Assembly: GCF_014334135.1 (NCBI RefSeq)
Contig: NZ_CP060497.1
Location: 5,146,001 to 5,210,000, forward strand
DNA from: Olivibacter sp. SDN3
Lineage (GTDB): Bacteria > Bacteroidota > Bacteroidia > Sphingobacteriales > Sphingobacteriaceae
Direction of reading: 5' to 3'
Length of the DNA: 64,000 nt
This document shows positions 23,701 through 47,970 of the stretch, in pieces; position 1 is the first letter of the stretch, and each line of letters begins with the position of its first letter. Made by a program: the position numbers and the translations under genes. The notes beneath the pieces were generated by a model, which did not search any database, had not been told where the DNA came from, and saw only the letters and a list, made by a program, of their open reading frames with translations.

Positions 23701-23868
23701 TGATCGAATAGTTGTTCCTTCGACCGTGACCGTCACACCATCCAGTGGTTCTCCAGACAGGTCTGTCACCTTACCGGTGATTTTATCGACCTGACCCCAT
23801 ACCGCTTCCGTACCCCATAGCAGCAGCATTAGATAGATAAATAGCTTTTTTGTCATTCTTTTGTACAT
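20785..23868 (-). CDS. SusC/RagA-family TonB-dependent transporter of the fructan locus
   Basis: A 1027-residue TonB-dependent oligosaccharide transporter. Signal peptide (about 1-25), carboxypeptidase-like domain (about 30-105), TonB box DEVVVTGYQ, plug with GQVPGMYITGNG and DPLYIIDGVP, and a long barrel. It lacks the STN domain found in the two FecR-linked SusC proteins of this window, so regulation is expected through the hybrid two-component sensor. It begins 129 bp after the fructokinase stop, so it may have its own promoter. An in-frame ATG four codons later is a possible alternative start. Confidence 0.96.
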   Translation of the reverse strand: MYKRMTKKLFIYLMLLLWGTEAVWGQVDKITGKVTDLSGEPLDGVTVTVEGTTIRSMTNADGSYSIAAEIGQTLVFSMVGAISEKQTIQNEEPLNVPLDVNFNLDEVVVTGYQAERKKDLTGAVAVVDVDEMKKQSVANPMKALQGQVPGMYITGNGAPSAPATVRIRGVGTLNNNDPLYIIDGVPTKAGMHELNPADIESMQVLKDASAASVYGSRAANGVIVITTKHGKLGGTQLNANAYTSVSSYVNRVNMLDTEGYGKALWQASMNNNVNPNNSGLPYRFEWSVDPVTDQPILDNVLVPDFLDAAHTMRSSNTDWFKEISQEGVIQSYDVQLSNGTENGNYLLSLGYFDNKGVVRTTGFNRLSARLNSDYKLFNGKLTVGQNLSITKTSELDVTPLNEALQALPIIPVRTVDGTGWGGPVEGMNDRHNPVRILEDNKQNNYDYTRLFGNFFADLKIMKGLTLRSNVGIDYGNYTSRNWEKRYQSGYLVNDVNKVINTQTHSVKTTWTNTLNYNAEWNDHRLDVIGGTEYYVENFNAFMASREGYILEDPDYMYLNAGTGIKDNEGDGAKHVLLSYFAKANYSYLDRYLLSATVRYDGSSRFGENNRFGTFPAFSAGWRISEEAFIKDHTTILDDLKLRFGWGMTGNQEIDNHAIYNIYLPNYNVTSYDINGNKSGVLPSGFFLSQNANPNLRWEATTMANAGVDFSFLNQKIYGSVDAYVKKTSDILLLPPYIGVLGEGGNTWVNGASMENKGIELVLGHRSKINEDLHLDLTANVDIVRNKVTHLPDEVINAYGGDGRGQNILGRTFESHFGYVADGLFRTQEEVDAHADQPNKGLGRIRYRDLNNDGVINDFDRTWIGVPIPKFTYGFNAAINYKNVDVSFLLQGVGPVDVHNEFKIYTDFWSAIESSSNKGERLLGAWSPTNPNSDIPAISLTDDNWEARYSTYFIENGTYLKLRNAQIGYTFGKESLTKLRMQSLRVYLGGDNLGILFKSKSYTGLDPENPGFGYPNPLVVTVGANIRF

Positions 23869-23997
23869 CGTTTAATTGGTTAAAATTTAGGCAATACGCT
23901 TCCACTTAGTCGTTTTTTGGATCACGCTATTATTCGGAAGATGTTCTTATTTCTTCCTTAATATATTTTTGGTTTTAAATTTTCTTAGGCCATATTT

Positions 23998-24918
23998 CTA
24001 CTTCCATTTAACCCGTTCCAGCTGCTTTTCCCACATGAAACGCTGGAGATCGGTCGTTCGATAATCCGGATTTGCGCCCGACTGCGCCGTTACATAAGCC
24101 CCTAGGGCAGCCGCATAGTCGAGCATATCATCGATGGATTTACCAAATAACTTCTTTGCTAAAAAGGCTGCCAGAAAGGAATCGCCACTGCCAATGGTAT
24201 CCTTTACGGTCACTGGATAAGCACGATAGTCGTGCCTGCTCTCCAGCGTATAATAAGAAGCCCCACCAGCGCCTTTAGTGACAATAACCTCTGAAAGGCC
24301 ATATTGCTCTTGGAGAGTCGACACGGCAGTATGCTCATCTTTTGCCCGAGCATTCATCCAATCGGTTATGATGAGCAATTCATGTTCATTTAGCTTGACA
24401 GCATCCGCTTTATGCAATAAATATTCAACGGTTTCCCGTTGATAATGCGGTGCGCGAAAATTGACATCAAAGAGCCTAAACCTTGCATGGTCTAACAATC
24501 GATAAAGGGTATCCCGTGTTTCCTGATTTCTCGCTACCAAACTTCCAAAAACCATCACATCCGCTGCTGTTACCAATTTTTCCAGCGGTGCAGTGTAAGT
24601 GATAAAATCCCAAGCTACCGGTTTCAGAATATCGTAACGCATTTCATGATTATCACCCATGGTGGCAATCACCTCACTGGTGTGATATCTGGCATCTACC
24701 TGTACATAATCAATTGAAAGTCCCATTTTTGTGAGAAATTCGGTAAGTTCTTTACCGGCCTCATCGTTGCCTACCCTGCTGACCATGCTGCTATCTATCC
24801 CCAATTTATTTAAATGGTAGGCCACATTCATGGGGGCACCGCCTGGCTTTTTCCCATCGGGAAGTACATCCCATAATACTTCACCGAAACATACTACTTT
24901 CTTCATTTTTGACATCAT
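23998..24918 (-). CDS. PfkB-family fructokinase
   Basis: Phosphorylates imported fructose to fructose-6-phosphate with ATP in the cytoplasm. 306 residues; PfkB/ribokinase signatures are KPGGAPMNVAYHL (substrate binding, about 24-36) and DTIGSGDSFLAAFL (catalytic Asp246, about 240-253). It is 7 bp from the MFS porter gene, and both lie at the head of the fructan operon, which supports fructose as the substrate. A first ATG pair at the start leaves the precise initiation codon ambiguous by one to four residues. Confidence 0.93.
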   Translation of the reverse strand: MMSKMKKVVCFGEVLWDVLPDGKKPGGAPMNVAYHLNKLGIDSSMVSRVGNDEAGKELTEFLTKMGLSIDYVQVDARYHTSEVIATMGDNHEMRYDILKPVAWDFITYTAPLEKLVTAADVMVFGSLVARNQETRDTLYRLLDHARFRLFDVNFRAPHYQRETVEYLLHKADAVKLNEHELLIITDWMNARAKDEHTAVSTLQEQYGLSEVIVTKGAGGASYYTLESRHDYRAYPVTVKDTIGSGDSFLAAFLAKKLFGKSIDDMLDYAAALGAYVTAQSGANPDYRTTDLQRFMWEKQLERVKWK

Positions 24919-24925
24919 GATATAG

Positions 24926-26263
24926 TTAATGTATTAATACCGCAGCTTCGCTTTCTACCTGCTCAAGCGAACGCCCCTTCGTTTCCGGCATTAATTTCCA
25001 TACAAATAACAACTGTAATACCATAAAACAAGCGAAAATAATAAAAGTATTTCCACCTCCTAAAAACTCCGTTAACGCGGGGAAGCAAAACGTAATGATC
25101 GCTGCCATCACCCAATGCGTTAAGCTGCCCAGCGTTTGCCCTTTTGCCCGGATCTCGTTGGGAAAAATTTCCGATATAAAAACCCAAATCACCGCTCCTT
25201 GAGACAAAGCAAAAAAGGCAATATAAAGCATCAGATATATGGTAATTGCCAAACCTTCTGTTTGACCTGAATAAAAAGCGAAGGAGACCATGGAGAGCGC
25301 AAAAATCAACCCGAAGGAACCGATCATCATGAGTTTACGACGTCCAACTTTATCAATAAAGTTAATGGCGATCAAGGTAAATATAAAGTTAACGATCCCA
25401 ATTCCTACCGTAGACAATAATGAGCTTTGCGCACCTAAACCAGCCATTTCAAATACCCTGGGAGCATAGTAGATGATCGCATTGATTCCAGAAACTTGGT
25501 TGAACATAGCGAACAAGATGGCTAACATCACAGGCAAACGATGCTTCTTTGCAAAGAGCTTTTCTCCGCTACCGTTGCCATCGTTCGCGCGATGGCTTGC
25601 TAAAATCGCAGCGATATCCTCCTTGTAAGTGTGTGCGTTTATTTTTTTCATGACCTTTTCCGCATCGTCTATGTTATTGCGGTGCAACAGCAGCCATCTC
25701 GGACTTTCCGGCACAAAAAATATAAGAATAAAAAACAGCAAAGCAGGTGCCGCCTGAACGCCCAACATCCATCGCCACGATTGTTCGCCTGTTTGGCCGA
25801 TCAGGTAATTGGATAGATAAGCGATCAGGATGCCTAAAACAACGTTGAATTGAAAGAGGCCGACCAATTTACCCCTTGATTTTGCAGGTGATATTTCTGA
25901 TATATATATAGGTGCGGTAACGGATGATACCCCTACGCCTATACCGCCGAAAAATCGAAATAAGATAAATATATTCCAATCAGTGGCCAATGCGGTACCT
26001 AAAGCCGAGAAAAAATATAATGCGGCTACGATAAAGAGCGTATTTTTTCTTCCCAATTTATCGGAAGGAAAAGCTCCTAAAGCAGCGCCCGCAACGGTGC
26101 CTATTAATGCAATAGCCATTGTTAGGCCATGCTGAAACTCACTTAGGTTCCAATAGTGTTGAACGGCCTTCTCTGCGCCTGAAATAACGGCTGTATCAAA
26201 GCCAAATAAGAATCCTCCTAGGGCCACCACAAATGACCATGCTAATACCGTGTTGTTGCTCAT
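24926..26263 (-). CDS. MFS sugar porter
   Basis: Inner-membrane sugar transporter of the major facilitator superfamily, 445 residues with about 12 hydrophobic segments. Sugar-porter motifs are visible: GFLFGFDTAVISG near the start, DKLGRKN and DKVGRRK in the loops, PESPRWLL after helix 6 and PETKGRSLEQVE at the C-terminus. It is the first gene of the fructan operon and directly precedes fructokinase, so fructose, probably with protons, is the expected cargo. It is divergent from the sensor gene across a 298-bp promoter region. Confidence 0.95.
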   Translation of the reverse strand: MSNNTVLAWSFVVALGGFLFGFDTAVISGAEKAVQHYWNLSEFQHGLTMAIALIGTVAGAALGAFPSDKLGRKNTLFIVAALYFFSALGTALATDWNIFILFRFFGGIGVGVSSVTAPIYISEISPAKSRGKLVGLFQFNVVLGILIAYLSNYLIGQTGEQSWRWMLGVQAAPALLFFILIFFVPESPRWLLLHRNNIDDAEKVMKKINAHTYKEDIAAILASHRANDGNGSGEKLFAKKHRLPVMLAILFAMFNQVSGINAIIYYAPRVFEMAGLGAQSSLLSTVGIGIVNFIFTLIAINFIDKVGRRKLMMIGSFGLIFALSMVSFAFYSGQTEGLAITIYLMLYIAFFALSQGAVIWVFISEIFPNEIRAKGQTLGSLTHWVMAAIITFCFPALTEFLGGGNTFIIFACFMVLQLLFVWKLMPETKGRSLEQVESEAAVLIH

Positions 26264-32952: not shown

Positions 32953-34131
32953 TTAAGAAGAGGACGACAACACCTCTTCTTTTTTGTCGTGTTCGGTTTC
33001 AATCATTGTTACGCGCTCCTGCATAACATGCGAAGTGTTATTCATGGATTTTTTTTTGCGAAAATAGTGAACCAGCGAAGGCATAGCAGAAAGCAAAATC
33101 AAAGCAAAGCCAATGTAAAGCAAATTAAAGACATCTGTAAAAAAAGGTCCTACAGAAAACACACCCAGTATAATCATTGTCGACAAGGGCAATGAAAGTG
33201 CCAGCATATTCATCGCTAATTCATTATTAAAAACCGCTGGAGCTTTGGGATCACCCTCTTTTTTACTCATTGACTCCACTATGGCCATGTGGGCAAAGGG
33301 CCAAAAACTACAGGCGCTTTGCGGAAACACCACAGCGAGCATTAGGGACGCGTAAGACGCTCCGGGCATAAATGAGATCAATAAGGCGCTGAGGCAAAAA
33401 ACTATACCCGACCGAAAGACTAGTAACCTGAATATTGCTTTAAATTGTTTCCACTTAAACACTACCGCTATACCAATAAACATTAAAATCAGCGGAGTCA
33501 TTAAGCTACCCAATAAATTAAGTGTGTCTTGAAAGAAATTCGGAAAATCTTCAAAATAAACACCAAACCCCAATAGAACCAACGCACCTACCATCACTAA
33601 ATTGATCGGTTCATTCAACATACCTAAGACCAACGATTTTAACTTTTCGTTACTGCTATGTCTCACGTGTCGGTTCAATTTATAAAACCAATGCATGGCC
33701 AACATATAACTGAAAAACAGCACCGCAATTTTATTGCCAATATCTGCTAAAGCGCCACGTGCTAGTGCTTCTTCCCCGATATATTCCGTAATAAAAGGAA
33801 AGCAAGAAAGACCCGGTGCTAATGACGGGATAAGCAACATGTAAGTACGCATCTCTGCACTGTGCTTAGCCGCACCATACAGTGGAAGAATAAACTTTAA
33901 TATCAAAAGAAAAACTACATTAAAAACAAGTACTAACAAGGGGAGAATCAACAAATTCGGCTTCACATGAAGTTTCATCAAAGCAACAAAAATTACCGTC
34001 GGTAAAGCCACATTCAATATGATTATTTTGATCGATTGATGATGGTCTTTTTTAGTAAGTTTAGTTTTTAACAATAAACCTATAATAATAATCAATATTA
34101 GAGACAATGTTTTCTGTAGAGCAATATTCAT
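32953..34131 (-). CDS. AEC-type integral membrane permease
   Basis: A 392-residue protein with about ten hydrophobic helices and a charged cytoplasmic tail (RKKKSMNN to the acidic end). The two-fold pattern (ILNVALPTVIFVALMKL near the start; NEPINLVMVGALVLLGFGV in the middle) resembles auxin-efflux-carrier (AEC) family permeases of organic acids or amino acids. It follows the aminotransferase on the same strand after 159 bp, so it may carry a product of that pathway (inference). The substrate is not determinable. Confidence 0.7.
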   Translation of the reverse strand: MNIALQKTLSLILIIIIGLLLKTKLTKKDHHQSIKIIILNVALPTVIFVALMKLHVKPNLLILPLLVLVFNVVFLLILKFILPLYGAAKHSAEMRTYMLLIPSLAPGLSCFPFITEYIGEEALARGALADIGNKIAVLFFSYMLAMHWFYKLNRHVRHSSNEKLKSLVLGMLNEPINLVMVGALVLLGFGVYFEDFPNFFQDTLNLLGSLMTPLILMFIGIAVVFKWKQFKAIFRLLVFRSGIVFCLSALLISFMPGASYASLMLAVVFPQSACSFWPFAHMAIVESMSKKEGDPKAPAVFNNELAMNMLALSLPLSTMIILGVFSVGPFFTDVFNLLYIGFALILLSAMPSLVHYFRKKKSMNNTSHVMQERVTMIETEHDKKEEVLSSSS

Positions 34132-34290: not shown

Positions 34291-35463
34291 TTAAGCGGTA
34301 ACGCGCTTAAATACGTTAGTAAATAGTTCCATTTCCGGCATAGTGCCAATACTTACTCTACACCAAGGTTCATCGTTAAAGCTATACAGTCTGACACCCA
34401 CACCGTTATCCGTCATGGATTTCATAAAATCTTCCTCCAATGTATCCTTATGTAGGGGAAAAATTACAAAGTTAGTATAAGAGGGAATATATTTATAGCC
34501 CATCTGGTCAAGTTCTGTGCACACATAATTTCGTGCAGCTGTATTTAAGGTTTTACATTCTGCGCAAAAATCTCCATCGGCCATACTAGCGAGAGCCCCC
34601 TTGATCGATGTCACACATAAGCCCATTGTACTACGAACCATATCGGTAATACTCTTAATTCTTTCCGGTGTAGCCACTACATACCCAATACGTAAACCTG
34701 CCATAGAATGTATTTTGGAAAAGGTACGGGCTACAATAACATCTTTTCCCTTGGCAACTAGATCTACCATACTATTGGCCTCCGGATCATCCAAAAATTC
34801 CAAATAAGCTTCATCAACAAATACGGGCGCTTTTTCCGAAACCTTTGAACAGAAATCACGTAGCGCGTTTGGTTCCGTCAACGACCCTGTAGGGTTATTG
34901 GGATTACAAATGTACACTAACTGCGTTTTGCTATCTACTGCAGTTTCCATCGCAGGTAAATCATGTGCATAATCTTCCGTAAGTGGCACAGCTTTCCAAT
35001 CGGCTCCAATTGCTTGAGCAGTATTAATTAAAGACATGTAAGAAGGATCTGCCGACACAATATTTCCACCTTTCATAAATCGGCTGATGGCTGTTTTCTC
35101 CAGTAAATCTGTGGAGCCGGGTCCCAGCATGATATGATCCGGTGTCACTCCTTCTTTTTCGGCAATCATATCGATCAAAACAGCTGCATCTGAATGACCA
35201 TAACGGTTTCCCACAGAAATAGCTTCGTTGATAGCCCTTTTCACGCTTTCAGAAGGGCCATAGGGGTTTTCATTGGCATTTAACTTTGCCTTTAATGCTG
35301 GTGCGGAATCGCGATAATAAGAAGGGTGCTCAATTTCCCAAATAACGCTGCCATACGCTTTCTTAGTAGAAGATGACCAAGCTAAGTTTGGAGCCAAGGT
35401 CAAACTGCTAGCTGCCATCAAACTAGATTTCAGCCAGTTTCTTCGATTTATTTTTGTAGACAT
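34291..35463 (-). CDS. Tat-exported PLP-dependent aminotransferase (HisC-like)
   Basis: Class I/II aminotransferase of about 390 residues. N-terminus INRRNWLKSSLMAASSLTLA is a twin-arginine-type export signal, unusual for this cytoplasmic family. Fold type I motifs: LNANENPYGPS, LGPGSTDLL, ICNPNNPTG, VDEAYLEF and SKIHSMAGLRIGY, with the PLP lysine at about residue 250. It resembles histidinol-phosphate aminotransferases but is not in a his operon. It follows the FAD oxidoreductase by about 197 bp in a SusCD locus. An upstream ATG at 35487 adds eight residues before the signal. Confidence 0.9.
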   Translation of the reverse strand: MSTKINRRNWLKSSLMAASSLTLAPNLAWSSSTKKAYGSVIWEIEHPSYYRDSAPALKAKLNANENPYGPSESVKRAINEAISVGNRYGHSDAAVLIDMIAEKEGVTPDHIMLGPGSTDLLEKTAISRFMKGGNIVSADPSYMSLINTAQAIGADWKAVPLTEDYAHDLPAMETAVDSKTQLVYICNPNNPTGSLTEPNALRDFCSKVSEKAPVFVDEAYLEFLDDPEANSMVDLVAKGKDVIVARTFSKIHSMAGLRIGYVVATPERIKSITDMVRSTMGLCVTSIKGALASMADGDFCAECKTLNTAARNYVCTELDQMGYKYIPSYTNFVIFPLHKDTLEEDFMKSMTDNGVGVRLYSFNDEPWCRVSIGTMPEMELFTNVFKRVTA

Positions 35464-35660
35464 GTGTAATAATATATTAAGTTTCAAAGATTTTATTGAT
35501 TCGCTATATTTATATAGTCAACTCATCAAGACACTCCCTCTATCAACAGGCCCTTTTTGGCAATTATTTTCTTTAACCAGTTGATTTTTCTCTATCTCAT
35601 CTATAAGTAATTTCGTTAGTATTTAATTTTATCGGTGTTTATAATCCACTATGCGCTTTT

Positions 35661-36803
35661 TTAAGCACGCATGTGTTGTACGATATCATTCAGCGCTTTA
35701 ATAATATTTAAAGTTACTTCTTTTTTAGGTTCGGTATTCCAGCTACCACGAATAGCATTTCCTCCCAATACTAAACCATCTCTTCTTGGTATAAAATAAC
35801 CATTCGGTGTACTCAATCTAAAATTGATTTCGGGCTGGGGAACCAAGAAAGCAAGCTGCCCCGATATCGGGATCAGTTCATCATCATTAAATAATTTCTT
35901 TGCTCCCAACCCCGTACAATTGACGATAAGCGGCTCTTTCAATGCTAACATTTCATGAACGGAATGAAATTCCTGGACTGAAAGTTCCCCGCCGCGATCG
36001 ATAAATTCTCTTGTCAGATAATCTAGGTATGAAGGAATGTTAAACACCATGGTCTTTTCCAAGACGATCTGCTTTTCACGAAATGGATGCTTGTTCTTAG
36101 ACAATAGAAATCTTTCCGGCAATAGTCCATCAAGATGTAGCCCGGATGCTTCAATATGTGTTTTTCCACCTATCACATAATGATTAACCCACTGCACCAT
36201 ATCATTGTTTAAGCCTAAAAGGTTTTGATAACTTCGAAAGGAATACCTACAAGCTTCTTCCCATACGTTTATTAGCTGTGGAGTAATCCGTTCTTCTTCA
36301 CAAAATAAATGTGCGGGCGACCAAGTACCCGTGGCCAAAGAAGAAGTATGATTGGGAAATAGCTCCTTTGCATAAATCCTCACCTTGCACCCCCTATTCT
36401 GTAAAGTCCTTGCCGTTGTCAAGCCAATAATTCCTCCTCCGATGACGGCGATTTCTGTATACCCACTTTCCCTTACCATGTTTGCAGCGATCATCGCCGT
36501 TCCCCATGAAAGTGAAAAACCACTTCCTCCATGACCATAGTTATGCACAATTGTCTTTTCGTCAAGTTTATCTGCTTTCAGACAAGCACCAGACAATCGA
36601 TAAGGACGTAAACCTACGGTCTCTTTTATGACCAAATCAGGGGCAATTTTTGCCTTTGGCAGCTTTCGATAACCCAAACTGTGCCCATTGGGATCTACGA
36701 TCTCCTTATTAGGAGCACATGAAAGTCCTCCTAGCCCAAACAACATGCCCAAACCTGCTAGGCCTGAGTGTTGAATAAAACGTCTTCTGTCTATTTCATT
36801 CAT
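35661..36803 (-). CDS. Tat-exported FAD-dependent D-amino-acid-oxidase homologue, circularly permuted
   Basis: 380 residues. RRRFIQHSG with a hydrophobic stretch and LSC (Cys29) is a twin-arginine lipoprotein signal. The body is a D-amino acid oxidase in a rearranged order: the family C-terminal segment (GLRPYR at 64-69, with the carboxylate-binding Arg, then NYGHGGSGFSLSWGTA at 88-103) comes first; the Rossmann motif AVIGGGIIGLTTA follows at 119-131; TSSLATGTWSP (153-163), NCTGLGA (295-301) and GYFIPRRDGLVLGG (335-348) complete it, and the chain ends where the usual C-terminal segment would begin. It probably oxidises an amino or imino acid in the periplasm, forming H2O2 if O2 is the acceptor. 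It lies 12 bp after a small lipoprotein gene. Confidence 0.87.
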   Translation of the reverse strand: MNEIDRRRFIQHSGLAGLGMLFGLGGLSCAPNKEIVDPNGHSLGYRKLPKAKIAPDLVIKETVGLRPYRLSGACLKADKLDEKTIVHNYGHGGSGFSLSWGTAMIAANMVRESGYTEIAVIGGGIIGLTTARTLQNRGCKVRIYAKELFPNHTSSLATGTWSPAHLFCEEERITPQLINVWEEACRYSFRSYQNLLGLNNDMVQWVNHYVIGGKTHIEASGLHLDGLLPERFLLSKNKHPFREKQIVLEKTMVFNIPSYLDYLTREFIDRGGELSVQEFHSVHEMLALKEPLIVNCTGLGAKKLFNDDELIPISGQLAFLVPQPEINFRLSTPNGYFIPRRDGLVLGGNAIRGSWNTEPKKEVTLNIIKALNDIVQHMRA

Positions 36804-36815: not shown

Positions 36816-37211
36816 TTACTCGATTGTCTGTAATTGTCTAAAAGCTACGCCTTTATGTTCTCCAGTCCACTCCAACCGGTTCGCACCTTCCAGTGTGCTT
36901 CTGTCCGCGTTAAAAAGTATCTGCCCTTGCGTATCTGTTGTAAACTCCCCTAGAGGTGTAGAAGTGTTGATATATACCCGGATAGGCAAACCTGTCAAAG
37001 GGATAGAATCTATGCCCAATTCTTGATCTAAAATATTGGTCTTATCTAGTTCATAAAAACTCGCTCGAACGCTTATTTCGCCTTCCGGAGCCGGTTCATT
37101 ATTGAAGAGTATCAATACGGGAGACACCTCCCTTTCCAATAACATTTCGTCTTTTTCGCATGCTCCAAGAACCAAACATAGGGTCAGGATAAGTAAGTAT
37201 GTGCTTTTCAT
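36816..37211 (-). CDS. small lipoprotein of unknown function
   Basis: 131 residues with a lipoprotein signal (LVLGACEKD, Cys18) and a body rich in beta strands (GEISVRASFYELD, PIRVYINTSTPLGEF), probably one immunoglobulin-like domain. It lies between SusD (41 bp upstream) and the FAD oxidoreductase (12 bp downstream), the place where surface-binding lipoproteins occur in SusCD loci. I do not recognise the family. Confidence 0.8.
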   Translation of the reverse strand: MKSTYLLILTLCLVLGACEKDEMLLEREVSPVLILFNNEPAPEGEISVRASFYELDKTNILDQELGIDSIPLTGLPIRVYINTSTPLGEFTTDTQGQILFNADRSTLEGANRLEWTGEHKGVAFRQLQTIE

Positions 37212-37252: not shown

Positions 37253-38713
37253 TTATTCTGCCCACCATAGTTTTGTTCGCATATTATCTGGGGAAGTGCC
37301 ATTCACCACATTACTTCCATTAAGCGAATATTCAGATGCAGGATACACGATACGCGTGGGCAATACGCCTTGATTTTCGAAGGCAGCTCGCGGATCAACG
37401 TACATAATAGCGGGCAGTCCGGTTCTCCGATATTCTGTCCATGCTTCAATACCCTGTCCGAACAATGCGATCCATTTCTGTTCCATAATAAGCGCTTTGT
37501 TGAGTGTACCAAGCGAACTGATATAGTTTGCCGGCATATCGAGTCCATATTGATCAAAAGATGCCTCAACACCCCTTTCGAAATACATTTGAGCAAGTGC
37601 TGTTCCGCCATCAATATCGCCATCGAAGGCGGCCTCCGCCAAAACAAAATTAAGTTCTGCATAACTCATAATAACACTAGGTGCCTCTGCCCGAGTAAAG
37701 TAGTCGCCTGGAAAAGAGGAAAGGTCGCCTTCCGCGATAGCGATAGCATCCGGTAATCCGTTGGCCATCCCTCTGTAACTACCGTTGGCCAGAGGTCTTC
37801 CATACACTTGCAACCTAGGATCATCCAGCTCCAACAACCGATTAACCAATGTTCTACTTAATCGCCAGTCGGTACGGCTACCCTGTATCATTACTTCATG
37901 CCATTCGTTATTACTAGGTCTGTTAGCACTATGCAGCAGAAAGGCATAGTCGGTGTTATCAGTAAAAACTGGATATGTATCTGGATTTGCTAAAATCTCT
38001 ACCATAATTGCGCTGGATTCGGCCGGTTTCTTCGCTGCCTGTCTATTTGCCAACTTCAATCGTAACGAATTGGCAAACTTTTTCCAGCGCAAAATGTCAC
38101 CATTAAAGAGAATATCTCCGGCAATAGCAGGCCCGTTCACGTCCAGCAGCTCATTAGCCCCTGCCAACTGATTCAACAAATCAGCGTAAATGTCTTCCTG
38201 CGTATTATAGGTAGGTGTATAAATGGGATCTTCCGCGGTTCCTTTTAAGGCTTCGTGGTAAGGAATGTCGCCCCATACATCTGTCAGAATAGAAAACACC
38301 CAAGATTTCATGACCAAAGCAACACCTTGATAATTCGTATTTCCTTCCAGTATAGCTTGTTTATGAATTGCTTCGAAATTGAGTAATCCGTCATTAAAGA
38401 AATATTGCCAATTCTCTTGCTGCAAAGTAGTGGGTGGCGCGTAAGTATCCCCTTCGGTCGTATAGATACGTCTAGCGAGATGTTGTACCCAGATTGAGCC
38501 GCCGTCCAGGTTCAGTCGTGCAAAGCGGGTCTGGTGCCCCCAATATCGATCGACTGCAGATTCTATAGCAAAGGGCAAAAGCAGTTGCGGGGAGACGGCG
38601 TTAGGATCGTTTGGTGAAACGTTCATTTCTTCAAAGTCTCCTGTGCAACCTGGAAAATTAAGTGATAAAATCACCATCAGTGTGCCCATAAATAATTGTT
38701 TGATTTTTTTCAT
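37253..38713 (-). CDS. SusD/RagB-family lipoprotein (SusD-like 2 type)
   Basis: 486 residues, lipoprotein signal (NFPGCTGDFEEMN, Cys23). The start EEMNVSPNDPNAV and motifs MKSWVFSILTDVWGDIPY and NFVLAEAAFDG are typical of the SusD-like_2 (RagB) branch. It follows the STN-SusC gene by 54 bp and should be its ligand-capturing lid. This branch is often found in loci that are not for glycans, which suits the amino-acid enzymes downstream, though that link is inference. Confidence 0.94.
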   Translation of the reverse strand: MKKIKQLFMGTLMVILSLNFPGCTGDFEEMNVSPNDPNAVSPQLLLPFAIESAVDRYWGHQTRFARLNLDGGSIWVQHLARRIYTTEGDTYAPPTTLQQENWQYFFNDGLLNFEAIHKQAILEGNTNYQGVALVMKSWVFSILTDVWGDIPYHEALKGTAEDPIYTPTYNTQEDIYADLLNQLAGANELLDVNGPAIAGDILFNGDILRWKKFANSLRLKLANRQAAKKPAESSAIMVEILANPDTYPVFTDNTDYAFLLHSANRPSNNEWHEVMIQGSRTDWRLSRTLVNRLLELDDPRLQVYGRPLANGSYRGMANGLPDAIAIAEGDLSSFPGDYFTRAEAPSVIMSYAELNFVLAEAAFDGDIDGGTALAQMYFERGVEASFDQYGLDMPANYISSLGTLNKALIMEQKWIALFGQGIEAWTEYRRTGLPAIMYVDPRAAFENQGVLPTRIVYPASEYSLNGSNVVNGTSPDNMRTKLWWAE

Positions 38714-38767: not shown

Positions 38768-41700
38768 TCAAAAGGAAACATTTAAATTGAAACCTATATT
38801 TCTTGTAGATGGTAGGTTACCATAGGCAAAGCCCTGGCTATTCTCGCCGAAAAAGTCTACCTCCGGATCAATATGCGGTGTGTTTTTAAATAGCAAGGCA
38901 AGGTTTCGTCCTACCAAAGAAATCTTGGCTCTTTTTATAAATCCTGTTCGTTCCAATAACGTGGTGGGAATAGCGTACCCGAAAGATAATTCCCGTAATT
39001 TTACATAAGTGGCATCAAATACGCCTGCTTCATGATAGGTGCGCGAAAAATTCCTCTTATAAAAAGGACTAGCTTCGGCTATCACATCATTCGGTACATA
39101 GACTGGGTTTTCTGTCGTGCCGACGTTCATGACACCTCGACCGATGACCCCTTCCTCACGCCCCAGCGCCGTTTCCGAATATTGCCCGGTTGATCGGCCA
39201 ATACCCGTTCCGTTGTCAAAGATTTTTCCGCCGTAGCGCATATCTACTAAAAAACTCAAACTAAAGTTCTTGAAGTTAAAGGAATTGAGCACACCACCCG
39301 TCCAATCTGGCTGTATGCTTCCCAGCGCCTTCGTGCCATCACCTAATATTGGTAACCCATTTTCATATACGATCTCCCCATCAGGCGTTCTTTCGAAATA
39401 AGTACCATAAAAAGTCCCGTAAGGCTCGCCAACACGTGCTTCTAATGTTAGGTAGTAATTTTCGAGCGTATAGGTCGTCAGGCCTTCGGCCAGTTCAACT
39501 ACTTTGTTTCTGTTCTTGGCCCAATTCACGTCAATATCCCAACTAAATCCAGTAGAAGTTCTGAAAGGTGTAGCGTGCAACACCACTTCAAAACCCTGAT
39601 TGGTCACTTTTCCAGCATTCAAAAGCCGATAGTTATAACCGCTTGCTTTTGATATTTCCACACCTAGTATCTGATCACGTGTATTTTGATTATAATAAGT
39701 CAAATCTAAGCCTACGCGATCGTCAAAAAAACGTAGGTCCAAACCTGCTTCAAAAGATCGGGTAATTTCGGGTTTTAGGTTTGGGTTAGCTATGGTGACA
39801 CTTTCTCCATAAGCAGGTAACTTCCCGTCCCATAGTACTTTCGATTCAAAGAGTTGTTGAAGCTGATATGGATCCGTGTCTGAACCAACTTCGGCCACAC
39901 TCAATCTTCCCTTAGCAAAAGACAGGGTTTTACTTTTAATAGGTAACATATCCGTAAAAATCATACTTAACGACGCCGATGGATAAAAAAAGGACCTATT
40001 ATCGACAGGTAATGTGGATGACCAGTCGTTTCTTGCTGTTAAATCTAAGAAAACAGCATTTTTATATCCAATGTTAGCTGATGCAAATAAGCTGTTCACC
40101 TCTGATTTTTCTATCCTACTTTCGGTGACTGGAGGAGAAGCAAAATTTCCTAGGTTCCATAAATTATTAACTGCAAGATCATTAATCTGCGTAAAGTTTC
40201 GTTTATAATAATTGTCGCGATGGACCCCTCCGACGTTAGTTGTGAGTTGGACATCACCAAAAGTTTTATTAAAACCCAGTAAAAAATCGAAATTACTTTC
40301 TTGCTGTCTCAACACCTCTTCCGAATAGGCGCCATTGGGATATCCCAAAGCAAAATGTTCAGCAATTTTATTCGTGCGGGTATCCGACCAAAGATCAGTA
40401 CCTCCTCGTACCATTAACGTTAACCAGTCGGTAAAATCATAATGCAAAGCTACATTTCCCAAAAGCCTATCCTTATCATTTCCATATTTCCAATGTTCTT
40501 GCATATAATACGGATTGGAAAAATATTCATATTGCCAGTTGGCATAAGGGAAATACTGATCGGCAGGTTGAATGACATTATCGGGTGTATATGTGGTTAA
40601 ATCCTGGAGCCTATTGTGATCTATATGCCTATGCGACCAAATAAATTCCTGTCCACTTTGATATCTTCTATTGTCGGAACCCGACTTGACGTATTCGGTG
40701 CTTATTGTAGCGCTTAGCTTATCGGTAAAATGATAACCACCATTAAATTTAAAATTATTACGATGATAATCGTTGTTATAAGCAATACCTTTTTGTCTGA
40801 CATCGCCGACAGAAAGTCTAAAATTCCCCTTATCATTAGAGCCTCCCAGCGCAATATTATTATTAAACATATGGCCAGTTTGCCAAAAATCATCCCAATT
40901 ATTGGGCTGGGGAAGCAATGGCACACGCTCTCCATTGCTCCACCATTGGGGCACGAGACGCCCGTCCATAGGGGCACCCCAACTTTCATCGACTCCATCA
41001 GTACCTGTTACAGTAGTCCCATCGGGTAAAGTTACCGTTCCGTTTCTACCATCAGAAAACATCGTTACATATCCTGTCCCACCACCATAGATATTTTGGA
41101 AGTCCGGCTTAATCCAAGGTCTTTCAAAAGTGGTATTGGAAGTAATATCTACTCCAATGCCACGCACATCCGAACCATCTTTGGTAGTGATCAGAATAAC
41201 GCCATTTGTTGCCCTAGAGCCGTATAAAGCGGCGGCATTAGGCCCTTTTAACACACTGATATTCTGAATATTATCTGGACTAACCTCAGACATACCACCA
41301 CCATATCGATTGTCGCCATCTTGTTGTATCGGAACACCATCGATTACAATTAAAGGTTGATTATTTCCGCTTACTGATGCTGATCCACGTATCTGAATGG
41401 TTGAACTGCTTCCCGGACCGGCATTGCTATTGATACGTACACCAGCCAATTTTCCCGAGAGCGCGTTGGTGACATTAGCGGTACGTACTTCGTTCAATTT
41501 TTCCTGATCAATATCCTGTACCACGTATCCCAACGCCTTTTTCTCCCGCTGTACACCAAAGGCTGTAACCACAACTTCCGATAATGCCTGTTCATCTTTT
41601 TCAAGCGTTATTTCCAAAGAATTTTGATCACCTACAGACAGCTCCATGGGTTTAAAGCCCATATAGCTTATTATCAGGGTGTCGCTGCCAGCAGGCATCA

Positions 41701-42244
41701 CCAGGCTAAATTGGCCATCCTCATTCGTTCCTGTGCGTAGAGAATTATTTTTGACCGCTACACTCACACCGGGCAACGGAAAACTCTCATCATCCTTCAC
41801 AATTCCTTTGATTACATGCTGCTGAGCACCTTTAGCTTGCTTTGATGAACTATTATCTGTAGACACACTGTACGTCTCCCCTTCTTTTTTATGAGTATCT
41901 CTATAAACGATATAAAACCCTTCATCATTTTTCTTAAAACTTAAACCCGATCCTCTCAAGGCGATGGTCAATGCGGCTTCTACGTTATTAACGGTCTTTA
42001 ATTTTTCAACGGCCACATCTTTACCGGTTAATAGGTCACTCCTGTAAGCAATAGAGACCTGATGCTGTTTCTCCAAATCTAGTATCAGTTGTTGTAAACT
42101 GATAAATTGATTGGTTAAAGTTTTTGTCAGGACAGTTTGATTGGAAGTTATCGAAACTTCTTCCTGAGGCTTGGCAAGTACCTGTATCTCACTCTCACTA
42201 AATAAGAGTAAGAGTAGACTCATTTTTTTTAATATTCTTTGCAT
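38768..42244 (-). CDS. SusC/RagA-family TonB-dependent receptor with STN domain
   Basis: About 1158 residues from the ATG at 42244, chosen because MQRILKKMSLLLLLF begins a normal signal peptide; the frame is open 69 bases further upstream. Order: signal peptide, STN domain (FISLQQLILDLEKQHQVS, then TIALRGSGLSFK), carboxypeptidase-like domain, TonB box SEVVVTAFGVQ, plug (GKLAGVRINSNAGPGSS, GSRATNGVI) and barrel. The STN domain means it signals to the FecR protein encoded 291 bp upstream. With the following SusD it forms the importer of this operon. Confidence 0.95.
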   Translation of the reverse strand: MQRILKKMSLLLLLFSESEIQVLAKPQEEVSITSNQTVLTKTLTNQFISLQQLILDLEKQHQVSIAYRSDLLTGKDVAVEKLKTVNNVEAALTIALRGSGLSFKKNDEGFYIVYRDTHKKEGETYSVSTDNSSSKQAKGAQQHVIKGIVKDDESFPLPGVSVAVKNNSLRTGTNEDGQFSLVMPAGSDTLIISYMGFKPMELSVGDQNSLEITLEKDEQALSEVVVTAFGVQREKKALGYVVQDIDQEKLNEVRTANVTNALSGKLAGVRINSNAGPGSSSTIQIRGSASVSGNNQPLIVIDGVPIQQDGDNRYGGGMSEVSPDNIQNISVLKGPNAAALYGSRATNGVILITTKDGSDVRGIGVDITSNTTFERPWIKPDFQNIYGGGTGYVTMFSDGRNGTVTLPDGTTVTGTDGVDESWGAPMDGRLVPQWWSNGERVPLLPQPNNWDDFWQTGHMFNNNIALGGSNDKGNFRLSVGDVRQKGIAYNNDYHRNNFKFNGGYHFTDKLSATISTEYVKSGSDNRRYQSGQEFIWSHRHIDHNRLQDLTTYTPDNVIQPADQYFPYANWQYEYFSNPYYMQEHWKYGNDKDRLLGNVALHYDFTDWLTLMVRGGTDLWSDTRTNKIAEHFALGYPNGAYSEEVLRQQESNFDFLLGFNKTFGDVQLTTNVGGVHRDNYYKRNFTQINDLAVNNLWNLGNFASPPVTESRIEKSEVNSLFASANIGYKNAVFLDLTARNDWSSTLPVDNRSFFYPSASLSMIFTDMLPIKSKTLSFAKGRLSVAEVGSDTDPYQLQQLFESKVLWDGKLPAYGESVTIANPNLKPEITRSFEAGLDLRFFDDRVGLDLTYYNQNTRDQILGVEISKASGYNYRLLNAGKVTNQGFEVVLHATPFRTSTGFSWDIDVNWAKNRNKVVELAEGLTTYTLENYYLTLEARVGEPYGTFYGTYFERTPDGEIVYENGLPILGDGTKALGSIQPDWTGGVLNSFNFKNFSLSFLVDMRYGGKIFDNGTGIGRSTGQYSETALGREEGVIGRGVMNVGTTENPVYVPNDVIAEASPFYKRNFSRTYHEAGVFDATYVKLRELSFGYAIPTTLLERTGFIKRAKISLVGRNLALLFKNTPHIDPEVDFFGENSQGFAYGNLPSTRNIGFNLNVSF

Positions 42245-42535
42245 ATAGTTGATTTGATTAAATTTTAAACAAAACTCTACCATTAGGGCATAGCCACAGC
42301 TGCTGTCCTTCACATTATAATGTACCGTATACGATATATTTAAAGTTCCACCACCTTCTCGTTAATGGAATCTCTCGAGATATTTAAGTTGTTTTTCTTT
42401 TTCCGTTCAGGTTATTCCCTTTCTAAACACACATACTCCTCCCATTGCCGATAAATGCTTTTTATCGAATCGATTAAACTCAACAAAATAAAGGAGTTCT
42501 ACAGCTTATGCCTTTTCACCGCTGTAGATAACGCG

Positions 42536-43516
42536 TCACTGATCATCTTTTAGTACAAGAAGTTCTTCATCTTCTATCATCACCAAACCATACAGAGCGG
42601 TCACATTTTTCAGTAACCGGTCTTTATCGGTTCCTAACGGGAATGATCCGGAAGCTTTTCTATTATAAAGGCTGTCGTCAGTAACTTTCAATGAGATACC
42701 GTAGGTATGATGCAGCATATCCACCATACTTCCCAATGAAGTTTCATTCAAAATGAACTGTTCTTTTTGCCAGGAAAAATGCCTATCTACATCATTAGCA
42801 TGCTGTACCATATATCCCTTTTCCTTTTCTTTGAAGGTAAGTAAGTCGCCTGGAGACAAGTACGTTTGATCCAAATTTTTATGCTGAGGCCGATAATCCA
42901 CCTTAACCTTACCATTTCTTAAAGCAACACGACTTTCATTCGGCCTATTCAATACATTAAACTCCGTTCCTAATACTTCGACAGATGTTGTATCAGAAAG
43001 ATGAACGACGAACCGTTGGTTATCATGCTTATGCACGACGTGAAAAGAAGCTTCTCCGGTTAACCATGCCTCTCGTTTATCAGGCAAATCAACAAAGCGG
43101 AGCGTCGAATTTCCATTCAGGGTAACTTTTGATCCATCCTTTAGCAGAATATTCTTGATTTCACCATATGTACTTTGGTATAAATAGGATTCAAAATTAT
43201 TGTTATAATAGTTATGACCAATTGTCCCCATCGCGAACAATAATACAAAAACAGCCGCAGCAGTTCTCCAATAAAGCGTCACCCGACCAAAGGTTCTCAA
43301 TTTTTCCTCCTCTTGTACCGATTGTATCGCATCAAACATCTCCTGTTTGATCGTTTCCCGTTTAGATTCACTAAAATCCATCACACCATTCGACCGTTCT
43401 TCTTCCAAAGAATCATACCATTGTGAAAAAACATCTCTATCCAAAAAACGCTCATTTTGAACAATATTTTTAATAATGTTATCTTTATTCCTGCTATCCA
43501 TTTTTTTACCGGACAT
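42536..43516 (-). CDS. FecR-family anti-sigma factor
   Basis: 326 residues: N-terminal cytoplasmic region, one membrane segment (about 83-101), FecR periplasmic domain (about 110-225; YGEIKNILLKDGSKVTLNGN, GEASFHV, LGTEFNV) and a C-terminal DUF4974-like end (MLHHTYGISLKV). It stands between a sigma gene and an STN-SusC gene, completing a trans-envelope signalling set. An in-frame ATG five codons later is an alternative start. Confidence 0.95.
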   Translation of the reverse strand: MSGKKMDSRNKDNIIKNIVQNERFLDRDVFSQWYDSLEEERSNGVMDFSESKRETIKQEMFDAIQSVQEEEKLRTFGRVTLYWRTAAAVFVLLFAMGTIGHNYYNNNFESYLYQSTYGEIKNILLKDGSKVTLNGNSTLRFVDLPDKREAWLTGEASFHVVHKHDNQRFVVHLSDTTSVEVLGTEFNVLNRPNESRVALRNGKVKVDYRPQHKNLDQTYLSPGDLLTFKEKEKGYMVQHANDVDRHFSWQKEQFILNETSLGSMVDMLHHTYGISLKVTDDSLYNRKASGSFPLGTDKDRLLKNVTALYGLVMIEDEELLVLKDDQ

Positions 43517-43751
43517 TCATTTATATAGTCAACTGAAATAATCCAAACCTCTATCGATTTCGATTTTTTTTCCCAATTATTGGATTATTTACGTTTCTTT
43601 GTATGTTCGAAAGGATGATTTATATATTTCCTTTATAAAAAGTTCTCGATTTATATTGCATATGAATGAATTCGCGAAATAAGTCGTTAAAATCCTTGAA
43701 CATTATTGATTTTCTATAGTACTTAAGGAGTCGATACAGCTGCGAAACGAA

Positions 43752-44315
43752 TTACTCTCGATAAATACCCTTTATCTGCTGTCTTATGATTTTTAATGCT
43801 TTTATCATGTGTTTCTCTACCGTGCTGACTGATATTTGAAGATGATCGGCAATTTCCAAGTAAGACATATCTTGCTCATGCTTCAATAAATAAACACGCT
43901 GTGGTTGAAGAGGAAGTGATGCTATACAATGAGAGATTGCCTTTTGGAGTTCTAGATAATTAATTTGTTGTTCAGTTTGGTTGCTATTTGGCAAATGATT
44001 ATTTCCAGCTATTTTGGCGATATATTTCTCCCTAACGATCTGTGCTTTAATGTAGTTAAAGATTTTATATTTAAGTGCTTGCTTGAGGTAAGCCACTATG
44101 GAGGTCTGAATAACGAGCTTTGAACGATTTTGCCAAATATCTGCAAACAAATCTTGGATTAAACCTTTAACAATCTCTTCATTGGGCAAACGCTTATAGG
44201 CTTGATTGAAAAGCAAAAACCAATATTCGTCATATAAATACTTAAAGGCTTCCCGATCGTCATTTTTCAACCTACTTACAACGTCATCATTGATTTTTTT
44301 AATATTCACTGACAT
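43752..44315 (-). CDS. ECF RNA polymerase sigma-70 factor
   Basis: About 187 residues. Region 2 (REAFKYLYDEYW to the FADIWQNRS segment) and region 4 (LPLQPQRVYLLKHEQDMSY, EIADHLQISVSTVEKHMIKAL) are clear. It is the first gene of the SusCD, FAD oxidoreductase and aminotransferase cluster and is expected to switch it on when FecR releases it. The start MSVNIKKIND fits family length better than the upstream ATG at 44345, which would add ten residues. Confidence 0.94.
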   Translation of the reverse strand: MSVNIKKINDDVVSRLKNDDREAFKYLYDEYWFLLFNQAYKRLPNEEIVKGLIQDLFADIWQNRSKLVIQTSIVAYLKQALKYKIFNYIKAQIVREKYIAKIAGNNHLPNSNQTEQQINYLELQKAISHCIASLPLQPQRVYLLKHEQDMSYLEIADHLQISVSTVEKHMIKALKIIRQQIKGIYRE

Positions 44316-44560
44316 TTTCTTAAAGTTTAGTGGAAATCCAAACAAACCGCCAGCTTTAACAAGGATTATTGGTTAATTTTAAACAATTTTACACAAAAAT
44401 GTTTTTCAAATCAAAATATTTATTAAAAAATATTAAAATCGTTAGAAAAAATCCAACATACCAGTACTATTATCTCATTAAACATCATTAAACATTAAAA
44501 AACTATTATTACAACGGAAGGTACAAATAACATTTGCTGCATCATTTGCCGACACCAATT

Positions 44561-46066: not shown

Positions 46067-47329
46067 TTAAAGAACGTCATTATCTGCTAACCAGACGGTG
46101 CCGTCTGTTTTGATCTCCCAAGCAGTTATCGGGTTAAAATGATATCCGCCTCGGCTCTCTCTTACGGAAGACAACATTCGATAGCTTGGTTGAACATAAC
46201 CCGTTTCATCTATTGCCCTGCTCATCACAATTGTTCCCCTGCCATTCCATCTCCATAAATAGTGGAAAGCGGTATGCGCTTTGCTGAGCACTGGTTCCTG
46301 CAATATCGCTGCTTGCCACGTTTTCCCTTCGTCTACGCTAATCTCCACTTGTATAATTTTCCCCCAGCCACTCCATGCAATCCCGCGGATTTCCACCCAT
46401 CCTTTTTCTATACGTAGTGGGTAAGAAGGAAACGTTATAATCGATCGGGCGTCCATAAGAAAGCTAAATTGTCGGATTTTTCCATCGGCAATTTTCTCTG
46501 TATATTTCGAGGTCTCTTCTCTTGTCATAAAAGGCTGGTTGGCAATCTCGATACGCCTAATCCATTTGATCTGTGTATTTCCCTCCCATCCGGGCAATAG
46601 TAGTCGCGCCGGATACCCTTGTTCGGGACGCAAAGCTTCTCCATTCTGCGCATAAACAATCATGGCGTCCTCATACGCTTTCTCTAAAGGGATACTGCGC
46701 GTCATGACTGCAGCATCGTTTCCTTCTGCCAAGAACCAACTTGCTTGGGGTTTCACCCCCACCTCACGGAAAAGTGTGGACAACATTACACCAGTCCATT
46801 CGCTCTGACTGGTTAGACCGCAAATTTCCTGCGGCGTTAATTCGGCCTTACCAGAACGAAAATTACCGGAACATTCGATGAAACATATACGTGTAAACGA
46901 TGGGAATCGCATTAAATCGCGCAATGTAAAAGACATGGGTTTATTGACCATTCCATGAATAACCAGTTCATACCGTTTTGGATCCATCGTAGGCACTCCA
47001 CCATGGTTACGCTCAAAATGTAGATCTGAAGGGGTAATGGTGCCGAAAAGATTCTGTAAAGGTGTTCGGGAGGAAGTAAAGGATGGCAGCTTTTTCAGTT
47101 TTTCGAAAGGAGAACGTGTACCTAAAGGCCCCGGTGGAACGCCAGGTACTTTTGTCGGATCCTTCGGCACAAATATTGGTTTTGCTTCCTGGATTACCTT
47201 GCCGAAGGCGTCTGGCACTAGTGCCAGACCAAGCGCCGCTGCGCCTCCCAACATCCGACGTCTGCTTATTTTTACTGCGGGTATATGATCGGGGAACTGC
47301 GTATCTAATATCTTTTTATCCTTGTTCAT
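46067..47329 (-). CDS. SoxC-like sulfite dehydrogenase, molybdopterin subunit, Tat-exported
   Basis: 420 residues, periplasmic molybdenum cofactor enzyme of the sulfite oxidase family. KISRRRMLGGAAALGLAL (about 20-37) is a twin-arginine signal. The catalytic domain shows SoxC features: TPLQNLFGTITPSDLHFERN and FIECSGN with the Mo-binding Cys153, then LLLPGWEGNTQIKWIRRI and the dimerisation domain at the C-terminus. In the Sox pathway SoxC pairs with cytochrome SoxD; a SoxD-like gene lies 11 bp upstream. No other sox genes are in the window. The oxidised substrate may be sulfite or a sulfur intermediate. Confidence 0.93.
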   Translation of the reverse strand: MNKDKKILDTQFPDHIPAVKISRRRMLGGAAALGLALVPDAFGKVIQEAKPIFVPKDPTKVPGVPPGPLGTRSPFEKLKKLPSFTSSRTPLQNLFGTITPSDLHFERNHGGVPTMDPKRYELVIHGMVNKPMSFTLRDLMRFPSFTRICFIECSGNFRSGKAELTPQEICGLTSQSEWTGVMLSTLFREVGVKPQASWFLAEGNDAAVMTRSIPLEKAYEDAMIVYAQNGEALRPEQGYPARLLLPGWEGNTQIKWIRRIEIANQPFMTREETSKYTEKIADGKIRQFSFLMDARSIITFPSYPLRIEKGWVEIRGIAWSGWGKIIQVEISVDEGKTWQAAILQEPVLSKAHTAFHYLWRWNGRGTIVMSRAIDETGYVQPSYRMLSSVRESRGGYHFNPITAWEIKTDGTVWLADNDVL

Positions 47330-47340
47330 GTGTACACTAG

Positions 47341-47970
47341 TTAACGTACTTCGGGTCCGCCACGACGATCATCTGCCACGAAGTGCTTCTTCGCGGGCAT
47401 TTCAACGGCAGGCAAGGTTTGCCGGTTAATTTCATCATCTCGGTTTATAACACCATTCGCGTACAATAAAAAGGCCGTAACCTGATACACCTCTTCGTTC
47501 GTCAGTGATCCTGGTTCATTGTAAGGCATTGTACGTCTGATATAATCAAATATCGTTGTCGCATAAGGCCAATAGTTGCCAATGGTTGCAGCCCGGGATG
47601 CACTATCCGCAACAAGTACGTCAAAGGGACCTTCTCTTCCCGTCTCACCATGGCAGGAAGCACACTTCTTTTGAAATAAAAGTGCTCCGTCCTTTGCGTA
47701 TCCCATGCCGTCAGGCAATCCTTTTCCGTCTGGCGTAATGCTGATGTCTAATCGCTCAATTTGTGCTTTCGTCGCTCTGGAACCGAAGTCAAAGCTTGCC
47801 GGCCAGCCGTTTTCGTCTGGGCGAACCACTATATTTTCTGCAGGAATGGCATAAGATGAAGACGCTTGTTCCTTCGGATGGTTTCCTTGGCATGCCGTTA
47901 ATAAGCCAATAAATAATATATAAATCAAGACTGATCTCACCTCAACTTCCGCCTCCATATTTTCCAGCAT
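47341..47970 (-). CDS. SoxD-like c-type cytochrome lipoprotein
   Basis: About 209 residues. Lipobox LLTACQG (Cys27) anchors it. The mature protein is one cytochrome c domain: FGSRATKAQIERLDI, then KKCASCHGE (haem Cys103, Cys106, His107) and RRTMPYNEPGSL (axial Met148). This is the sequence pattern of the SoxD sulfite dehydrogenase cytochrome, but with a single haem site, shorter than diheme SoxD proteins. It overlaps the stop of the upstream DoxX-like gene by 29 bp and lies 11 bp before SoxC, so it is probably the electron acceptor of that subunit. Confidence 0.9.
   Translation of the reverse strand: MLENMEAEVEVRSVLIYILFIGLLTACQGNHPKEQASSSYAIPAENIVVRPDENGWPASFDFGSRATKAQIERLDISITPDGKGLPDGMGYAKDGALLFQKKCASCHGETGREGPFDVLVADSASRAATIGNYWPYATTIFDYIRRTMPYNEPGSLTNEEVYQVTAFLLYANGVINRDDEINRQTLPAVEMPAKKHFVADDRRGGPEVR

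Follow-up and report, generated by a model that had tools for sequence, protein, structure and literature searches.

The gene at positions 35,661 to 36,803 (minus strand) of a 64,000-nucleotide stretch of Olivibacter sp. SDN3 DNA, hereafter the window, almost certainly encodes a natural circular permutant from the D-amino acid oxidase (DAAO) / D-aspartate oxidase lineage. The open frame is intact, 380 aa long and without a stop, and it is the single match in the Olivibacter genome, which consists of one contig. The coordinates given in an earlier sequence-only reading were correct, and the strand is added here. The gene and its parts are as follows.

35661-36803, minus strand: permuted DAAO-like gene, 380 aa (open frame; Pfam DAO, E 2.1e-29; single genome match)
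36717-36803, minus strand: residues 1-29, twin-arginine signal (DRRRF) and atypical lipobox GLSC with Cys29 (NCBIfam TIGR01409; relatives)
36465-36632, minus strand: residues 58-113, C-terminal piece of canonical DAAO with GLRP at 64-67 and HNYGHGG at 87-93 (phmmer to 6rkf 280-337 and 7ct4 320-375; HMM 265-318)
36603-36614, minus strand: GLRP motif, R66 aligned to human DAAO R283 (alignment)
36525-36545, minus strand: HNYGHGG motif, FAD/active-site loop (sequence and alignment)
35667-36458, minus strand: residues 116-379, with the Rossmann start and the core, equivalent to the N-terminal four fifths of canonical DAAO (phmmer, HMM, structure alignment)
36420-36452, minus strand: Rossmann GxGxxG motif, residues 118-128 (IAVIGGGIIGL), with G122, G124 and G127 invariant in the family alignment

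The window protein does not have the canonical order of Rossmann motif first and GHGG last. Its GLRP/NYGHGG segment precedes the Rossmann motif, as had been read from the sequence, and 32 residues remain to the C-terminus after GYFIPRRDGLVLGG (residues 335-348), where about 30 had been estimated. The two pieces, residues 58-113 and 116-379, are non-overlapping and free of duplication, stand in swapped order and together cover the parent. A phmmer search against solved structures aligned query residues 116-368 with residues 13-264 of human D-aspartate oxidase (6rkf) and query residues 59-113 with residues 280-337 of the same chain (whole-sequence E 7.9e-26). The swapped two-piece match was also obtained with 7ct4 and likewise with 1c0i, where the second piece is weak (16.5 bits).

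An HMM of 321 positions was built from 18 canonical relatives. The window protein matches it at model positions 265-318 (51.3 bits) and then at 5-262 (144.8 bits), so that an alignment of the two halves, proposed earlier as a check, yields them in swapped order. After rearrangement to canonical order, a single match of 207.9 bits over positions 6-318 is found. The summed score rises from 197.7 to 208.2 when the order is restored, a small gain because the tool already sums both pieces. Among the 73 permuted proteins tested with this model, the restored order scored above the best single piece in all 73 and above the summed score in 72 (mean sum 162.2 to 171.2 bits).

A lone genome could mislead a reading made from its letters, and a sequencing or assembly error, the joining of two fragments or a tandem pair with a frameshift might each have produced the swapped order. 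This explanation is exceedingly improbable, given an intact frame in a one-contig genome and 104 unique proteins of the same order from separate assemblies. Since the permuted order recurs across separately assembled genomes, frameshift, chimera and assembly error were rejected. The segment could also be an independent domain with a second copy at the C-terminus, an outcome that the sequence-only reading had weighed against permutation. This was rejected as well: none of the 152 classified frames has a second C-terminal copy, and each of the 122 permuted frames consists of two pieces with one C-type copy. A tandem-duplicated intermediate, that is, a full DAAO with both pieces, was not found in the 152 classified frames, and in the tandem pair of permuted genes in L028 both copies are already permuted. 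The earlier claim of a true circular permutation in an intact frame is thus borne out by the phmmer and HMM tests and by recurrence in separate genomes.

The Pfam DAO family (PF01266) scores the window protein at 103.6 bits against a cut-off of 27.9, with the best stretch at residues 118-375, and matches all 35 permuted proteins of set A2 (E up to 1e-5). Among the 25 NCBIfam matches listed of 72, the TAT signal domain alone is above its cut-off. With DAO and the TAT signal alone passing (for NCBIfam, among the matches listed), the permuted protein has no family name of its own in either library. No description of a naturally permuted D-amino acid oxidase was found among the open-access papers listed, which does not show its absence in print; PMC3320104 and PMC12667903 do not mention an oxidase or FAD, and PMC5169069 does not mention permutation.

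An AlphaFold2 model based on 35 permuted sequences reached a pLDDT of 88.8 and a pTM of 0.85. By ten-residue blocks, the pLDDT is 43-71 over residues 1-50 and 94-99 over residues 51-120. In the structure alignment (VIA), model residues 114-377 were aligned to residues 2-264 of 6rkf (Z 21.7, rmsd 2.3, 246 residues). A canonical control of the same class, modelled in the same way (L012, pLDDT 91.7), aligned to 6rkf over its whole length (Z 39.4, rmsd 1.9, 312 residues). The lower Z of the permuted model fits a swapped piece, because a sequential aligner must drop the piece that has moved. As the structure-library alignments are sequential, residues 58-113 cannot appear in them, and this is no evidence against their placement. 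The elements E58-69, E74-80, E83-89 and H99-113 of the permuted model correspond to E262-272, E277-280, E286-290 and H296-313 of the control; in the two models the proteins are built from the same secondary-structure elements in swapped order. The pLDDT of 94-99 and the strand-strand-strand-helix pattern of the moved segment bear indirectly on its predicted placement in the FAD and substrate site, which the sequence-only reading had set as a condition.

Relatives were collected by a profile scan of genome contigs with an alignment of three permuted proteins as query. All of the best 80 of 288 relatives have the permuted order, a count that is no frequency because ranking by a permuted query favours that order. 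A motif pattern recognized 73 permuted frames (70 among the best 80, plus L001, L002 and L006), and ten more that the pattern had missed were then read. Order was classified with a profile of mixed canonical and restored sequences, which gave 122 permuted, 30 canonical and 0 ambiguous frames. Merging of frames with identical last 250 residues left 104 permuted, 24 canonical and 0 ambiguous unique proteins, and the search for other proteins of this order, also proposed earlier, was thereby answered. By their medians, the permuted proteins cover model positions 262-330 and then 1-266. The first piece starts at a median position of 262 (range 247-301, where 301 is the truncated L122), the second ends at a median position of 266 (range 259-268), and the linker between them has 1-22 residues (median 2). 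By their labels, the 80 loci belong to Bacteroidota (64), Pseudomonadota (8), Acidobacteriota (7) and Zixiibacteriota (1). Judged from these sequences, a permuted family with a common breakpoint is widespread across several bacterial phyla.

The main group is termed CP-A here. A very divergent permuted group, CP-B, was found in whole genomes (L124:847-2028, L130:207-1421, L131:651-2147); in its members C(Y/H)RPxR replaces GLRPxR, and a WTLGPGS segment follows GHGG. One genome of the Acidobacteriota sample (G1307) encodes four permuted paralogues (L134, L148, L152, L153). The tandem permuted pair (L028:2507-3652 and 3836-4978) lies on a contig binned as Thalassovita, which is probably misbinned Bacteroidota DNA, given its SusC/SusD-like neighbours and the tree position. 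Only candidates from a loose first pass were scored, so that all genome frequencies are lower bounds: at least 2 of 399 genomes match in the window's family (at 1e-10; both permuted); at least 21 of 395 in the phylum sample (permuted in the window genome and G598, canonical in 18, unclassified in G747); at least 7 of 395 in the class sample (2 CP-A, 2 CP-B, 3 canonical); at least 8 of 142 in the class of G798, Hyphomonadaceae (7 CP-A including the seed, 1 CP-B); at least 17 of 149 in the phylum of G799, Acidobacteriota (10 with permuted genes, 13 genes with the seed included, 6 canonical and 1 with an unclassified 79-aa frame); and at least 1 of 143, the seed alone, in the class of G800 (Dyella).

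A 71-row tree was computed from 46 permuted proteins with restored order, 24 canonical bacterial proteins and human DAAO. The label permuted or canonical changes once on it, on a branch with an SH-aLRT support of 99. Its details are unsure, since the method was 'quick', CP-B has a branch length of 4.23 and the long canonical branches of L023 and of the human enzyme come together. The common breakpoint supports one event separately from the tree. A repeated origin, for instance a separate one in CP-B, would agree with the very long branch and unsure place of this group and with its longer linkers (9-11 residues); it is nevertheless improbable, since the breakpoint is identical in CP-A and CP-B and the label changes a single time. 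The permuted order is most likely the derived state, because the canonical control aligns sequentially with the other listed DAO-fold enzymes; the tree is unrooted. The window protein groups with a relative from the same genus and with Adhaeribacter (support 99; 61% identity to Adhaeribacter). This grouping, together with the patchy presence in the window's family, suggests transfer of the gene.

The leader of the window protein reads MNEIDRRRFIQHSG ... GLSC, with Cys29 as the lipobox cysteine, and matches the TAT signal model TIGR01409 with 18.9 bits (cut-off 16.7). The twin-arginine part of the lipoprotein signal described earlier therefore stands, while its lipobox is atypical; close relatives have the ordinary sites AAGC, VASC and ASSC. 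An RR pair precedes the first piece in 102 of the 104 permuted proteins; it is missing from L122, which is truncated, and from L124, a CP-B protein whose leader is Sec-like. Loose patterns detect all three features, RR, hydrophobic stretch and lipobox-like site, in 86 of 104, and some of the frames begin upstream of the true start. TatC is encoded in the Olivibacter genome. The Tat system exports folded proteins (accessible part of PMC3827258), which suits an FAD enzyme. From its leader, the permuted protein is probably exported and lipid-anchored.

For the active site, the 104 restored permuted proteins were aligned with 24 canonical proteins and human DAAO. The positions G7, G9, G12, G310, H311, G312, G313 and G315 of the human enzyme are kept in 101/101 CP-A and 3/3 CP-B proteins. 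The equivalent of human R283, which we take to be the substrate-carboxylate Arg, is present in 100 of the 101 CP-A and in all three CP-B proteins; the remaining row is a gap, most likely the truncated L122. The carboxylate-binding Arg claimed earlier is thus present, but it is R66 inside GLRP that aligns with R283 and not the later Arg of GLRP-x-R. The HNYGHGGxG loop occupies residues 87-95 of the window protein, and the position of human T317 is S or T.

Human Tyr224 and Tyr228 are presumably the active-site Tyr residues. The window protein has Y336 at the Y228 position, in agreement with the Tyr equivalent reported in the sequence-only reading, and the CP-A proteins mostly have Y (41 of 101), N (32), S (18) or H (6). 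The lid that carries Y224 in the human enzyme is several residues shorter in the permuted family, and the Y224 position falls in the shorter loop. At the positions of human L51, Q53 and Y55, permuted proteins have mostly T, S and A, and canonical bacterial proteins mostly I, F and Y. The statement that the motifs are otherwise intact accordingly applies to the FAD-motif glycines, the GHGG loop and the GLRP Arg, but not to the Tyr, for which more than half of the family has another residue, nor to the shortened lid. The pattern suggests that binding of the cofactor and of the carboxylate is preserved and that the side-chain pocket is changed. As Y228 is often replaced, the lid is shorter and the L51, Q53 and Y55 positions differ, the substrate may be other than a D-amino acid.

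The best reading of the family, and a likely one, is an exported and lipid-anchored FAD oxidase that converts amino-acid-like compounds to imines. That it acts as an FAD oxidoreductase of amino or imino acids in the cell envelope is on balance probable, and D-amino acids as its specific substrate appear rather doubtful. The chances are close to even that the protein, permuted and exported as described, does not act on free D-amino acids but on another compound (an L-amino acid, an N-substituted glycine, a dipeptide or a siderophore-type residue) or passes its electrons to a carrier as a dehydrogenase. The pocket positions and lid, which differ from canonical DAAO, speak for this; the GLRP Arg, the GHGG loop and the nearest folds, which are those of DAAO and D-aspartate oxidase, speak against it. 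The genomic context also bears on this choice.

In the window, the permuted gene lies in a row on one strand, in the order sigma factor, FecR, SusC, SusD, 131-aa lipoprotein, permuted gene and aminotransferase. The neighbours are as follows.

42536-44345, minus strand: FecR-like protein and ECF-type sigma factor, upstream of the row (Pfam FecR, Sigma70_r4_2)
38768-42313, minus strand: SusC-like TonB-dependent receptor (Pfam Plug, TonB_dep_Rec_b-barrel)
37253-38713, minus strand: SusD-like outer-membrane lipoprotein (Pfam SusD-like_2, E 2.8e-91)
36816-37211, minus strand: putative lipoprotein, 131 aa, at 12 bp from the permuted gene on its upstream side (relatives in L028, L030 and the Adhaeribacter loci L025 and L026)
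34291-35487, minus strand: HisC/PtaA-like aminotransferase with a twin-arginine-like leader, NRRNWLKSS, by eye (Pfam Aminotran_1_2, E 4e-49)
32953-34131, minus strand: 392-aa protein resembling membrane transporters, of uncertain association (Pfam Mem_trans, 18.3 bits, under the cut-off of 25.7)

The 131-aa putative lipoprotein has no Pfam or NCBIfam match. The row of SusC, SusD and lipoprotein also precedes the permuted gene in both Adhaeribacter loci. Between positions 34000 and 38800, 12 promoter-like sites were counted where 11.8 are expected, and 7 terminator-like sites where 4.1 are expected. Elsewhere in the window, a molybdopterin oxidoreductase with an RR leader (46067-47970; Oxidored_molyb and Mo-co_dimer, sulfite-oxidase type) lies upstream of this row and adjoins a 209-aa frame that is maybe a c-type cytochrome by eye. 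A probable fructan-utilisation locus (14530-26263; glycosidase-like lipoproteins, SusC/SusD-like, carbohydrate kinase-like and sugar transporter-like genes) and a 548-aa transposase-like frame (12760-14406) were also seen by eye.

A substrate other than free D-amino acids gains from this row with its sigma/FecR and SusCD genes and from the neighbouring aminotransferases. The window aminotransferase, 173 bp downstream of the permuted gene, resembles the pyoverdine-tailoring PtaA (224.7 bits, below the NCBIfam cut-off of 500). A class V aminotransferase with an RR leader lies directly downstream of the permuted gene in five loci, and the one that was scanned (L026) has the periplasmic pyoverdine protein PvdN as best match, likewise below cut-off (136 bits against 650). 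In the relative from the same genus, the permuted gene shares one row, one gene apart, with M14 and M20 peptidases, which points in the same direction. In Adhaeribacter aquaticus (L026:9211-14572), the genes after the permuted one code for a class V aminotransferase, a Rid protein whose leader is Sec-like, a PF01593 flavin amine oxidase and a further aminotransferase, which is HisC-like. This row probably comprises several exported amino-acid enzymes, the enzymes mostly with RR leaders by eye. Threonine aldolase is found within 2.5 kb in 20 loci, all of Dyadobacter; together with GH92-like, metallo-hydrolase and patatin-like neighbours (by eye) it was set aside as a functional link, as these look like synteny.

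Rid-family genes, which code for imine deaminases, were surveyed in 79 entries, namely 77 of the 80 scan loci plus the window gene twice (as L001 and as the window); L092-L094 were left out because of overlapping frames. A Rid-family gene lies within 2.5 kb of the permuted gene in 22 of the 79 entries: divergent and upstream in 14, directly downstream in 7 (Larkinella) and two genes downstream in 1 (Adhaeribacter aquaticus). These 22 cases come from related genomes and are not independent. Ten genomes, all selected for Rid association, hold 75 PF01042 genes in 63.9 Mb, from which the chance of a Rid gene in a 5-kb window is about 0.6% per locus. Of four Rid neighbours scanned, three match PF01042, and the best match of the one from Larkinella is PF14588. 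A Rid gene near the permuted gene was also seen by eye in G598. With three seed profiles, no Rid gene was found beside the window gene or in the examined Dyadobacter, Acidobacteriota and Pseudomonadota loci.

The Rid-family proteins of L031:7347-7886 and L075:7380-7889, and their relatives in 14 loci, are divergent and carry leaders that resemble signal peptides. The L031 and L075 proteins were scanned and match PF01042 at 1.2e-11 and 5.6e-14; the L031 protein has no NCBIfam match at 1e-8. Eight Rid proteins have Sec-like leaders by eye and keep the Arg in the P-x-R/H-A-R segment, which we take to be the place of the essential Arg of RidA. The permuted protein might still be a non-catalytic FAD-binding lipoprotein, as the Y228 equivalent is missing in more than half of CP-A. 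Such a pseudoenzyme is very unlikely, given that the R66 equivalent, the FAD-motif glycines and the GHGG loop are invariant over a divergent family and that an imine product would agree with the Rid neighbours present in some lineages. According to the accessible parts of two papers, Rid genes are found clustered with those of PLP enzymes and FAD amine oxidases, RidA hydrolyses imines formed by an amino acid oxidase (PMC4433059), and Rid2 and Rid3 act on iminoarginine from the D-arginine dehydrogenase DauA, on which RidA and Rid1 did not (PMC5619798).

The permutation would have joined the old C-terminus, the last helix after HNYGHGG, to the old N-terminus, the first Rossmann strand, by a few residues. 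The new termini would lie between the last helix of the N-terminal four fifths and the GLRP-bearing strand. The protein would be exported by Tat in folded form with its FAD and then lipid-anchored. An amino-acid-like carboxylate substrate would be oxidised at the flavin, with release of an imine plus H2O2 or electrons. The imine might be hydrolysed spontaneously or, where the genome encodes one beside the permuted gene, by a Rid protein, and neighbouring Tat-type PLP aminotransferases may take over the keto acid. The substrate in the window may derive from a TonB-imported peptide or conjugate, because the gene sits in the row of sigma/FecR, SusC, SusD and lipoprotein. As a tentative proposal, somewhat short of even odds, an ancestral permutation led to an exported lipid-anchored DAAO branch with a changed pocket, which in some lineages forms, together with exported Rid proteins and PLP aminotransferases, a cell-envelope module for the oxidation of amino acids or peptide conjugates with imine handling outside the cytoplasm.

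The family represents a natural and widely spread circular permutant of a textbook flavin-enzyme fold. It is easily overlooked, since the libraries say just 'DAO' and the moved piece is lost in sequential structure alignment. It offers a natural experiment on folding order, on cofactor insertion before Tat export and on active-site tolerance in the DAAO fold. It also hints that amino acids may be oxidised outside the cytoplasm with the participation of Rid proteins, and it provides new oxidase candidates for biosensors and chiral chemistry.

The cpRAS GTPases (PMC2430557) and the permuted NlpC/P60 proteins (PMC3142127) result from the same kind of evolutionary event in other folds and, in the accessible parts of these papers, include no flavoproteins. 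Glycine oxidase ThiO, sarcosine oxidase and other DAO-fold enzymes have the fold and the Pfam DAO superfamily in common with the permuted protein but are more distant (ThiO model 62.9 bits, cut-off 250.8; lower Z). Canonical bacterial DAAO-like proteins (L007-L024, L141-L146) are homologous over nearly the full length once the order is restored; they differ in their canonical order and are separated from the permuted proteins by the branch of support 99. The first 60 residues of 18 canonical proteins contain no RRx[F/L] motif. Four canonical proteins with long N-terminal extensions (L022, L142, L143, L145) have no convincing Tat signal by eye, L145 having RR without a hydrophobic stretch, and these extensions look like mis-chosen starts. 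DAAO and D-aspartate oxidase (human 2du8 and 6rkf, pig 1kif, Rasamsonia 7ct4) are alike to the permuted family in both pieces, the fold of the larger piece, the FAD-binding motifs, the GHGG loop and the GLRP Arg. In contrast to them, the permuted family has the swapped order, a Tat/lipoprotein signal, a shorter lid and an unconserved second Tyr.
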